The notes under the pieces are model-generated. The model had not been told where the DNA came from, searched no databases, and saw only the letters and a program-made list of their open reading frames with translations. The position numbers and the translations under genes were made by a program. From Planctomycetota bacterium (lineage in GTDB: Bacteria; Planctomycetota; Planctomycetia; JALXBF01), in assembly GCA_026991575.1 (NCBI GenBank), contig JALXBF010000039.1, positions 1-64,000 of the forward strand: DNA of 64,000 nucleotides, read 5' to 3'. This document shows, piece by piece, positions 42,099 through 46,474 of this stretch (the stretch's first letter is position 1; each line of letters begins with the position of its first letter).

Positions 42099-43643
42099 CT
42101 AGGCGTCCTCTTGCTGGACCAGGGCGAGCGCACGCTCGAGCCGCTGGAGCGCGCGCTCTTTACCGAGGATCTCGACTAGCTCGAACACTCCCGGACCAAT
42201 CGTCTGTCCGGACGTGGCCACCCGAAGCGGGTGAATCACCTTGCCAGCACCGACGCCGAGCTCCTCAGCCAGGCCACGTACCACCTCTTCGATGTGCGCC
42301 GCGTCGAACGGTTCCAGGCCGGCTAGTCGCTCGCGCAACCGGGCCAGCACAACCGGCACGTGCTCTTTGAGCAACACCTTCTGGACCGCCTTGGGGTCAT
42401 AATCAACCTCGTCCTTGAAAAAGAACCCCCCGTACACGATGACGTCGGTGAACACCTTCATGCGATCACCGAGTGCTTCGATCACGCGCCGGATCAGGCT
42501 CCTGGTCGACTCGTCGACCGGGTCACCGACAAGCCCGGCTCGCTGGAGAAAGGGAATCGTGCCGGCGACTTTCTGCTCCAGCGGCAGCTCGCGCATGTAC
42601 TCGCCTTGAAGCCAGTAGAGCTTGTCCGGATCAAAGCTAGCAGGGCTCTTATGGATGCGTTCTAAAGAAAAGTTCTCGATGAGCACCTGGCGGGGGATCT
42701 TCTCCGTGCGGTCATCCAGTGACCAGCCCAGTCGGGCCAGCCCGTTCAGAACGGCATCGGGCAAGTAGCCCAGGTGGATGTAATAGTCCAGCATCACCGG
42801 ACTGGGCACCTCCTCCGGCTTAAAGCCCAGCTTCAGGAACCGTGCCACGTTCTCCTCCGTCTGGTACCGCTCCAGATGCCGCTTGGACAGTTTCGCCTTC
42901 GATCCCGGTGCGGCCACGTACGGCACGTGAGCGAACTGCGGGGGAGTGATGTCGAACGCCTCGTACAGCAGCAGCTGCACGAACGTGTTCGTGAGGTGTT
43001 CCTGAGCGCGGATGACGTGGGTAATCTGCATGCTAGCATCGTCGACGACGGTGGCGAAGTTGTACAGCGGCATGCCATTGGCCCGGACGAGAACCACGTC
43101 GCCAATGTCGTTGGTGTTGCGCTCCACAGGGCCAAGCACCACGTCGACGAACCGAATCACCCGGTCCGGCTCCACCTTCAGGCGCAGCACGTAGGGCATG
43201 CCGGCCTCGATCCGCCGCTGCTGCTCCTGTGTGGGTAACGCACGGCACCGCCCGCTGTAGCGGTACGGTCGCTTCGCCTGTCGAGCCTCTTGCCGCTCGC
43301 GCTCGATCTCTTCCGGGGTACAGAAGCACGGATAGGCGCGGCCGCGGCTGCGCAGCCGTTCGGCGAACTCACGGTAGACCTCCAACCGTTGGGATTGGTA
43401 ATAGGGCCCGTGTGGGCCGTCGACGCCCGGTCCCTCGTCCCAGTGAAGCCCCAGCCAGCGGAGGCCGGCCAGGATCGGCTCCAGCGCCTCCTCGCGGTGA
43501 CGCTCCACGTCAGTGTCGTCGATCCGAAGCACAAACTGGCCGCCAAAGCGGCGGGCCAGCGCCCAGTTGAAGATCGCGGTGCGCACACCACCGATGTGCA
43601 GGTAACCGGTCGGGCTGGGTGCAAAACGGGTTCGTACAGTCAT
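42099..43643 (-). CDS. gltX: Glutamyl-tRNA synthetase
   Basis: RFAPSPTGYLHIGGVRTAIFNWALAR, LRIDDTDVER, GSKAKLSKRH. Confidence 0.97.
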   Translation of the reverse strand: MTVRTRFAPSPTGYLHIGGVRTAIFNWALARRFGGQFVLRIDDTDVERHREEALEPILAGLRWLGLHWDEGPGVDGPHGPYYQSQRLEVYREFAERLRSRGRAYPCFCTPEEIERERQEARQAKRPYRYSGRCRALPTQEQQRRIEAGMPYVLRLKVEPDRVIRFVDVVLGPVERNTNDIGDVVLVRANGMPLYNFATVVDDASMQITHVIRAQEHLTNTFVQLLLYEAFDITPPQFAHVPYVAAPGSKAKLSKRHLERYQTEENVARFLKLGFKPEEVPSPVMLDYYIHLGYLPDAVLNGLARLGWSLDDRTEKIPRQVLIENFSLERIHKSPASFDPDKLYWLQGEYMRELPLEQKVAGTIPFLQRAGLVGDPVDESTRSLIRRVIEALGDRMKVFTDVIVYGGFFFKDEVDYDPKAVQKVLLKEHVPVVLARLRERLAGLEPFDAAHIEEVVRGLAEELGVGAGKVIHPLRVATSGQTIGPGVFELVEILGKERALQRLERALALVQQEDA

Positions 43644-44308
43644 CGTCCGCTCACGGATCGGCCGTCCTGTTCGGTGAGGCATCCTATCACCCAACGGCCA
43701 ACATGAGCAACGGGAGATCGTTGAGTTTCCTCCGGCTCCCACTCGGCTCTGGCCCACGCGCTACCGAAGCAGGTTGCTGGAACGCGGCTCGGGGAGAGCC
43801 GGCGGATGAACGACTTGTCGACGACCCACACGCAGGAATTTGCTGCGTCCGCCGGCGCCGTCCAACCACCGTAGCAGGCAGGGCCGGAAAGGCCCACTGC
43901 CCGCCTTCTCCACGCAAGCCATTGCACGAGGTTGCGTTCCTCACGAACATGCGATCGGCCGCCCAGACCCACGCGCTGCCGGCTAGCGGCAGCAGCCCAT
44001 CGGTACCGTCGCCTGGCCAGCCGCGCCGGAAGAGCTGCGGTCGGGCCGCGGCCACGAAGAGCCGGCATGCTGGCCAGTGCTTCTTCAGAATGGCCGAAGC
44101 ACTGGTTCACTGCCTGCCTCCGGCCCCAGCGTCCCTCTTGCTGGGCCACGGCACGACGACGCTTTTCATGGCAGGGTGCGCGACGCGGTCCGCGAACCGA
44201 CGCAACCGATGCCGTCAGAAGCTGGCACGGTGGCTAGTAGTACAGGCCGGTCAGGCCAGCCGGGCCGTGCCACCGACTCGGGCGTGCGCACAGAAAAATC
44301 CCGCCCCA

Positions 44309-44325
44309 CTGGCACGATTGTTGCA
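44309..44325 (+). promoter_or_regulatory. Sigma-54 (-24/-12) promoter CTGGCACGATTGTTGCA
   Basis: Full match to YTGGCACGrNNNTTGCW; GG and GC separated by exactly 10 nt; about 180 nt upstream of the FlgM-like gene. Confidence 0.8.
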
Positions 44326-44397
44326 AGAGCCTATCCTCCGGCTGGTCGCTGATCAAGCGGTTCGTGGCCTGATCCGATGACGAAACACGGCGTTCGC

Positions 44398-44455
44398 ACT
44401 TGCTGGGAGGCAAGTTCGGGTCTTGAAACAACGGCAATGCCGGGAGGCCGCATTG
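44398..44455 (+). promoter_or_regulatory. Two tandem leader hairpins displaying GGGAG in their loops
   Basis: ACTTGC-TGGGAG-GCAAGT (44398-44415) and CAATGC-CGGGAGGCC-GCATTG (44435-44455) between the sigma-54 promoter and the ATG at 44509. Confidence 0.45.
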
Positions 44456-44508
44456 TAGCGCTTACAGCGACGATTGCTTCGTGGCACGCCATCGGCGAGG
44501 AGGACACC

Positions 44509-44763
44509 ATGGAGATCCACAGTGCACATGGTCTGCGAGCTCCCGAACCGGCATTGCGCCGGCTGAACACCCGCCGCAGCGCTACGGCAGCTACCTCTGC
44601 GGCCTACGCCGACGAGCTGGAACTGTCGCTGGCCGATGCCGCGGTGCGCCGGTCCCTGCGAATCGCGCAGATCCAGGAAGAGATCGCGGCCGGCACGTAC
44701 GACTCGATCGAGCGGCTCGCTGCGACGGTGTATCGCCTGGTTAACGAGCTGAACCTGGATTAG
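44509..44763 (+). CDS. FlgM-like (anti-sigma-28 family) small protein
   Basis: VRRSLRIAQIQEEIAAGTYDSIERLAATVYRLVNELNLD resembles the FlgM C-terminus; GAGGAG SD upstream of ATG. Confidence 0.72.
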   Translation: MEIHSAHGLRAPEPALRRLNTRRSATAATSAAYADELELSLADAAVRRSLRIAQIQEEIAAGTYDSIERLAATVYRLVNELNLD

Positions 44764-44970
44764 CGCCGCCACTCGCCGCAGCAGAGCCCGCTCGAGCAAG
44801 CCAGAGCGACGCACCTGCATCGAGCACCTCTGCGATCTGTGCGCCCCCGTGCGACGGCCCTACGCCACCCCCCGGTCCATCCCCGCTCGGTCCGGCAGAG
44901 CCGTGACTTTTCGGCCGCCAGGCCCGATACTAAAACGGGCCTTGCAGAACCGATTCGGGAGGCGACGCGA

Positions 44971-45456
44971 TTGGAAACCCGCAGGGACCATGACCCGGCC
45001 AGCAGCGCCGAGGAAAAGTTCGCCGAGTACCTCGCGTTGCGAGGCAAACGGCTCTCGCGCGCGCAGCGTGAGCTGGTGCGGTACATCTTCAGCTATCACG
45101 ACCACTTTACCGCCACCAAGCTCATCGACGATATCCGCGCCAAAGGCATGAAGATCAGCCGCGCCACCGTCTACCGCACCCTGGCACGGCTGGTCGACGC
45201 TGGTCTACTGCGAACGCATCGCTTCGAAGACCAGGTGGCCTACGAACACCAGTACGGCTACCCGGAACACGATCACCTCTACTGCCGCAACTGCGGCAAG
45301 ATCGTGGAGTTTACCGCTCCACAGCTCGCCGAGCTGCGCGAACACGTCGCGCGCGAACACCGATTCCGGGCCCAAAGCCACCGCTTCATCATCACTGGCC
45401 TGTGCGAAAGCTGCGCATTGCAGCAGGCCAGACGGCGCAAGGTCGACTTCATCTAA
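44971..45456 (+). CDS. Fur-family transcriptional regulator
   Basis: KISRATVYRTLARLVDAGLLRTHRFED..., EHDHLYCRNCGKIVEF, GLCESC. TTG start at 44971 preceded by GGGAGG. Confidence 0.9.
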   Translation: METRRDHDPASSAEEKFAEYLALRGKRLSRAQRELVRYIFSYHDHFTATKLIDDIRAKGMKISRATVYRTLARLVDAGLLRTHRFEDQVAYEHQYGYPEHDHLYCRNCGKIVEFTAPQLAELREHVAREHRFRAQSHRFIITGLCESCALQQARRRKVDFI

Positions 45457-45490: not shown

Positions 45491-46474
45491 CTATGAGCCG
45501 CTCGTGATGGTCTCGATACCCAGCAGCCTGAAATCGCTCGCCAACCCACCGTCGTCTTCGTACGTGTCCGTGCCCGGACCGCCATGCACGGTCAGCACCC
45601 CGTAGCAGGCACCGGCGTACGAGGCAAGATCATCGCCCGAGCCGAGCAGAATAAAGGCGTTCTGGCCAAAGACCGCCGAATCGTACACCTCCACCGTATC
45701 ACCACCCGAACCGGCAAAAACGTATGTCCTGCCCTCATACATCCCTTTCAACTCGACGCTGTCCGCACCCCCTCCGGTAAAGATGAGTAGCTCGCCAGCT
45801 ACTGCAGAACCGGTCCCCAGCTCCACGTGGTCCTCACCAAGATTGGCCGCAATCGTCAGCACGGCGCCAAAGTCCCCGTTCAAGTCAGCATGGTTGTTGC
45901 CATGGCCCAGGTTGATCAGCGCACCGCGTCCAACGGTCGCATTCAGCCCCATCTCCACTATGTCATCGCCCTGGCCCATCAGCGCAAGTAGCCCTCGATC
46001 CACGTCGCCATTCAGCGTGAAGGTGTCGTTGCCGGAGCGGCCCCGGACGATCAAGTTCCGTTCGATGCGGCTGCTTCCGGCCAGCGTCAAGGCGTCGTTG
46101 CCACCACCGAGGTCAACCACCGCCGTGCGGCGAACGTTGCCGCCCAGCACGGTGACGGTATCATTGCCGCGACCGGTCGTCACCAACAGCGCCCGCATGA
46201 TGTCGCTGTTGGACAGATCGATCGTGACGTTGTCATGGACGACTGCGTTGTGTCTGCCGATGATGACCCGCACGGACTTGGTCACTCCCGCAAACGTCCC
46301 CACTTCGACCCCGTCATCGACCACCCGGAACTCCCCGATGTCGACGCTGTTGATCTCGACCGCTCCATCAGGCCTGCCCCAGACGACCAGATTGCCCCCG
46401 ACCACCTTGGCGGACACGGTCAGTAGCTCGCGTGGCTCAAGCCGCTCGACCTGCAGGCGAACACGTTTGCGCAT
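45491..46474 (-). CDS. LEPR-XLL domain surface protein with GxGxD-rich tandem repeats
   Basis: MRKRVRLQVERLEPRELLTVSA then about 10 repeats of 21-24 aa with G-x-G-[ND]-[DN]. Confidence 0.8.
   Translation of the reverse strand: MRKRVRLQVERLEPRELLTVSAKVVGGNLVVWGRPDGAVEINSVDIGEFRVVDDGVEVGTFAGVTKSVRVIIGRHNAVVHDNVTIDLSNSDIMRALLVTTGRGNDTVTVLGGNVRRTAVVDLGGGNDALTLAGSSRIERNLIVRGRSGNDTFTLNGDVDRGLLALMGQGDDIVEMGLNATVGRGALINLGHGNNHADLNGDFGAVLTIAANLGEDHVELGTGSAVAGELLIFTGGGADSVELKGMYEGRTYVFAGSGGDTVEVYDSAVFGQNAFILLGSGDDLASYAGACYGVLTVHGGPGTDTYEDDGGLASDFRLLGIETITSGS

Follow-up and report, generated by a model that had tools for sequence, protein, structure and literature searches.

A divergent flgM gene beside fur in a planctomycete genome, preceded by candidate sigma-54 and sigma-28 promoters

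The flgM-fur locus

We analyzed a 64-kb stretch of planctomycete DNA, referred to here as the window. The 865 nt separating flgM from gltX (minus strand, start at 43643) contain an element of the −24/−12 type recognized by sigma-54, and the next gene after flgM, in the same orientation, is of the Fur family (Table 1).

Table 1 Genes and candidate regulatory features around flgM in the window.
Feature	Position	Strand	Basis and remarks
gltX (glutamyl-tRNA synthetase)	42099-43643	-	PF00749, E = 1.6e-93; divergent neighbour bounding the intergenic region
TGGCACG, extra copies	44223-44229; 44266-44272; 44482-44488	+; -; +	Role unexplained
−24/−12 sigma-54 consensus element, TGGCACGATTGTTGCA	44310-44325	+	12/12 fixed positions matched
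Predicted sigma-54 transcription start	44335-44337	+	~12 nt past the GC, from promoter geometry
Sigma-28-type element, TCAA-N16-TCCGATGA	44353-44380	+	Weaker version of the element in family f2; P = 0.002 versus shuffles
flgM (84-aa anti-sigma-28 factor)	44509-44763	+	FlgM family profile, GGAGGA ribosome site; single genome copy
Sigma-28-like element before fur, TAAA-N14-ACCGATTC	44931-44956	+	Top-scoring site of the window with spacings of 14-16 allowed
fur (Fur-family metal-responsive regulator)	44971-45456	+	PF01475, E = 5.4e-25; TTG start; conserved flgM neighbour

The flgM open reading frame (ORF) has a ribosome site of its own. A longer version opening with an ATG at 44377 was discarded, since 44509 is the point from which homology and the ribosome site begin. 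A first-pass annotation, made from the letters and ORFs of the window, had called the gene FlgM-like and suggested a search against the Pfam FlgM profile PF04316. With this protein alone, that search remained below threshold (17.1 bits, cut-off 25), as did TIGR03824 (19.6 bits, cut-off 40.75), whereas both profiles were matched by all 22 aligned family members at E ≤ 0.01 (best value, 3e-11). The profile of the family also retrieved solved FlgM structures, namely 1rp3_B (Aquifex FlgM, E = 1.6e-5) and 9wsf_B (E = 4.1e-7), and the FlgM-like assignment was thereby borne out at the family level. Since the protein scores below the curated cut-offs on its own while all 22 family members match, we classed it as a divergent FlgM homologue rather than a member of the curated profiles; judged by these alignments, it is a planctomycete FlgM in a fast-changed version. 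A single-protein search found homologues in 29 of 198 Planctomycetia genomes, and searching with the 22-member alignment recovered the FlgM family in 195 of the 198, almost always as a single copy.

Like the FlgM proteins of PF04316, TIGR03824 and Aquifex 1rp3, the protein is short and carries a D-x-[LV]-x-[IL]-S motif as well as a C-terminal R...I..E/QI..G.Y segment, and one copy is encoded in a genome that also contains FliA. It differs in lacking ~8 residues that its relatives have between the serine and the R48 helix, and in the position of its gene, which lies beside fur and apart from the flagellar cluster.

The downstream gene had been correctly read as fur, as its PF01475 match attests. 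Across the class, a same-strand Fur-family gene is located ≤1.2 kb downstream of flgM in 78 of 108 loci, representing 14 of 16 sampled families. We found no description of this pairing in the open-access literature, subscription papers being outside the search. The flgM gene is probably transcribed toward fur and perhaps forms one transcription unit with it. Beyond fur, the window encodes at 45494-46474 on the minus strand a repeat-rich predicted extracellular protein with an N-terminal motif of the planctomycete LEPR-LLT type (PF07595, sub-threshold).

Candidate promoters upstream of flgM

Direct inspection of the window placed CTGGCACGATTGTTGCA at 44309-44325, with GG at 44311-44312 and GC at 44323-44324. 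The N10 spacing and every fixed position of the sigma-54 consensus, as claimed in the first pass, were thus verified. The exact match, TGGCACGNNNNTTGCW, occurs once in the 64-kb window; two further sites with at most one mismatch to the consensus are both situated away from the flgM region. The element is oriented toward flgM and ends 183 nt ahead of its ATG. As the first-pass annotation had also stated, no credible ORF intervenes, this stretch holding only antisense or composition-type ORFs and the in-frame flgM extension from 44377.

Genome-wide counts were used to weigh a real site against chance. The 4.96-Mb genome contains 16 exact matches to the sigma-54 consensus, compared to seven for the reversed pattern and an expectation of 2.3-3.7 per genome (0.03-0.05 per 64 kb) from first- to fourth-order Markov models built on 441 kb of the same genome. 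Exact matches are, therefore, enriched roughly 2- to 7-fold, an enrichment that does not make a single match proof, and roughly half to four fifths of them would be real sites. At one mismatch the counts were 110 versus 102, an excess of nearly nil; taken by themselves, these counts would suggest a chance motif only, a reading weakened by the excess of exact matches. One of the latter (contig C8, 4767-4782) is found ~180 nt ahead of glnA, encoding glutamine synthetase, a classical sigma-54 target. Another precedes the gene for a MotA/ExbB-type protein by ~160 nt, and the remaining ones are partly in noise-like places. The genome also encodes RpoN and ~16 strong matches to enhancer-binding proteins, the machinery that the first-pass annotation had proposed looking for. 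On the basis of the observed, reversed and expected exact-match counts, the −24/−12 element before flgM is therefore probably, although not certainly, a real sigma-54 promoter.

Conservation was studied at flgM loci from 108 class-level genomes, a sample in which the order is represented by this genome alone. Within 300 nt upstream of flgM, the best −24/−12 scores at the 108 loci followed the shuffled distribution with two exceptions, this genome (12/12) and G194 (11/12). Conservation of the element in relatives, put forward as a check in the first pass, was absent at the class level, with none of the sampled relatives closer than class.

A second type of promoter emerged from the same loci. 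In family f2, flgM is preceded at a distance of ~160-215 nt by a clear sigma-28-type element, TAAA-N16-GCCGATAA. A motif built from this element as seed scored far above shuffles across all loci. The share of this signal contributed by family f3 resembles a sigma-70 promoter, and outside f2 the enrichment is modest (four loci versus 0.4 expected at the strictest threshold). In the window, the weaker version lies between the sigma-54 element and flgM; sites scoring equal to or above it number two in 128 kb, counting both strands. The sigma-28-like element before fur has a spacing of N14, unlike the N16 of the relatives. In f3 loci (for example, L173 and L161), a sigma-70-like TTGAAT ... TATGAT recurs ~71-77 nt before flgM. 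Neither a sigma-70 promoter nor a terminator was found in the flgM region of the window. The flgM leader gave no Rfam match and its folding was not unusual (z = −0.30), so that a riboswitch or another non-coding RNA was dismissed there.

The heptamer TGGCACG is present in four copies (three plus, one minus) within 270 bp of the flgM upstream region (44223-44488), the first three spaced 43-44 bp apart; each of the other 107 flgM upstream regions contains none or one. Within the window, ~2% of comparable 7-mers cluster as tightly. The cluster may reflect chance or the operator of another regulator, and part of the sigma-54 match could itself belong to such a repeated operator.

These data bear on an alternative in which the −24/−12 match is fortuitous or otherwise not a promoter, flgM depends, as it does in relatives, on the sigma-28-type element and perhaps on a housekeeping promoter too, and TGGCACG serves another regulator as a repeated operator. 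The seven exact matches that even the reversed pattern yields, the lack of conservation across the 108 loci, the sigma-28-type element shared with relatives and the four clustered heptamers all argue for it. Against it stand a perfect match in the correct orientation and at the correct distance, the low Markov expectation and the lack of a sigma-70-type promoter in the region, and we regard it as rather unlikely.

Flagellar genes elsewhere and the role of the circuit

The first-pass annotation had noted an absence of flagellar genes nearby and raised the possibility of a non-flagellar sigma/anti-sigma circuit under RpoN control. The observation is accurate for the window; the genome, however, carries a full set of flagellar genes on other contigs, which is why none was seen. 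FliA (sigma-28) is encoded on contig C8 (22265-22933; 269.8 bits, above cut-off), and a flagellar cluster on contig C179 comprises FlhA, FliF, FlhB, FliM/N, MotA, FliG and FlgE. A flagellar circuit is, thus, the most likely reading, and a novel one is not needed.

Gene arrangements vary among genomes. In the genome studied here, fliA (locus L137 of C8, 2241-3568) is on a different contig from flhA and adjoins the gene for a 100-aa protein consisting of a FliG C-terminal domain only. In many relatives, fliA is only a few kb from flhA. Relative G097 exhibits the gene order flhA-fliA-flgM-fur, and in G010 the distance from flgM is ~5 kb to fliA and ~9 kb to flhA.

Among 34 FlhA-negative Planctomycetia genomes (mostly family f4, also f8), 31 retain a FliA-family sigma factor together with an FlgM-like gene, although FliF is still present in two of the 34 and some are incomplete, so that flagellar loss is not proven in each. 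The pair can, therefore, outlive the export gate, a point in favour of a non-flagellar sigma-28/FlgM circuit. For the genome studied here, we nonetheless consider such a circuit very improbable, given its flagellar genes and an FlgM that keeps its N-terminal segment. The idea that genomes without FlhA can be recognized by an FlgM lacking this segment was discarded, as the N terminus of family f4 is divergent with or without FlhA.

In FlhA-negative genomes, a downstream Fur-family gene accompanies ten of 11 sampled flgM loci. A broader scenario, in which a class-wide sigma-28/FlgM/Fur module outlived the flagellum in several lineages, couples sigma-28 activity to the sensing of metals or redox state and here gained direct sigma-54 control, is speculative, and we would not expect it to hold. 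The flgM-fur pairing spans the class and includes lineages that lack the export gate, so that the function of sigma-28 and FlgM in the absence of a flagellum becomes a testable question.

The same pairing, seen in nearly three quarters of the class-level loci, and the exact sigma-54 site ahead of glnA are compatible with a nutrient or metal input. Here, an NtrC-type activator acting with sigma-54, or else Fur itself, would raise FlgM and halt motility during starvation, with flgM-fur as one response unit. Gene pairing is, however, not evidence of shared regulation, and we judge this explanation improbable.

Sigma-54 sites of at least 9/12 were lacking at the examined flagellar operon heads (flgB/flgC and flgE), and near fliA the matches are weak, reaching 9/12 at most. 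In the absence of such sites at the operon heads, an RpoN tier for flagella is not visible in this organism.

Proposed regulation of flgM and comparison with known systems

Taking the evidence together, we lean modestly toward a reading in which flgM, lying ahead of fur, is a flagellar checkpoint gene and has two candidate promoters stacked before it, one for sigma-54 and one for sigma-28. In this model, RpoN and an enhancer-binding protein would produce FlgM in the middle stage of flagellar assembly, and FlgM would keep FliA inactive. Once the hook-basal body is ready, FlgM would be exported or titrated, and the freed FliA could drive late genes including flgM, creating a feedback loop. Flagellar regulation in Planctomycetes is, to our knowledge, almost undescribed. 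If the sigma-54 site is used, RpoN would act directly on the sigma-28 brake in these bacteria.

The ingredients resemble those of RpoN-tiered flagellar hierarchies in Campylobacter, Vibrio and Helicobacter, which likewise combine RpoN, FliA, FlgM and enhancer-binding proteins; in contrast to these systems, the flagellar operon heads here are without visible sigma-54 sites. Pseudomonas flgM is not RpoN-dependent (PMC3930126), which counts against the sigma-54 reading. A survey of sigma-54 regulons across phyla predicted that motility genes of Planctomycetia have sigma-54 promoters, as does a COG2747 (FlgM) gene in Liquorilactobacillus nagelii (PMC12316311); its text names neither a planctomycete flgM nor the flgM-fur pair. 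In Campylobacter jejuni, flgM is transcribed with RpoN-dependent genes and additionally from its own FliA promoter (PMC11187230). Because of this dual supply in C. jejuni and the predicted sigma-54 motility promoters of Planctomycetia, the proposed sigma-54 and sigma-28 wiring of flgM is, by analogy, a variant of known practice. The two arrangements differ in the route of the RpoN input, which reaches C. jejuni flgM by read-through from flgI/flgJ, whereas the candidate site described here lies directly before flgM.
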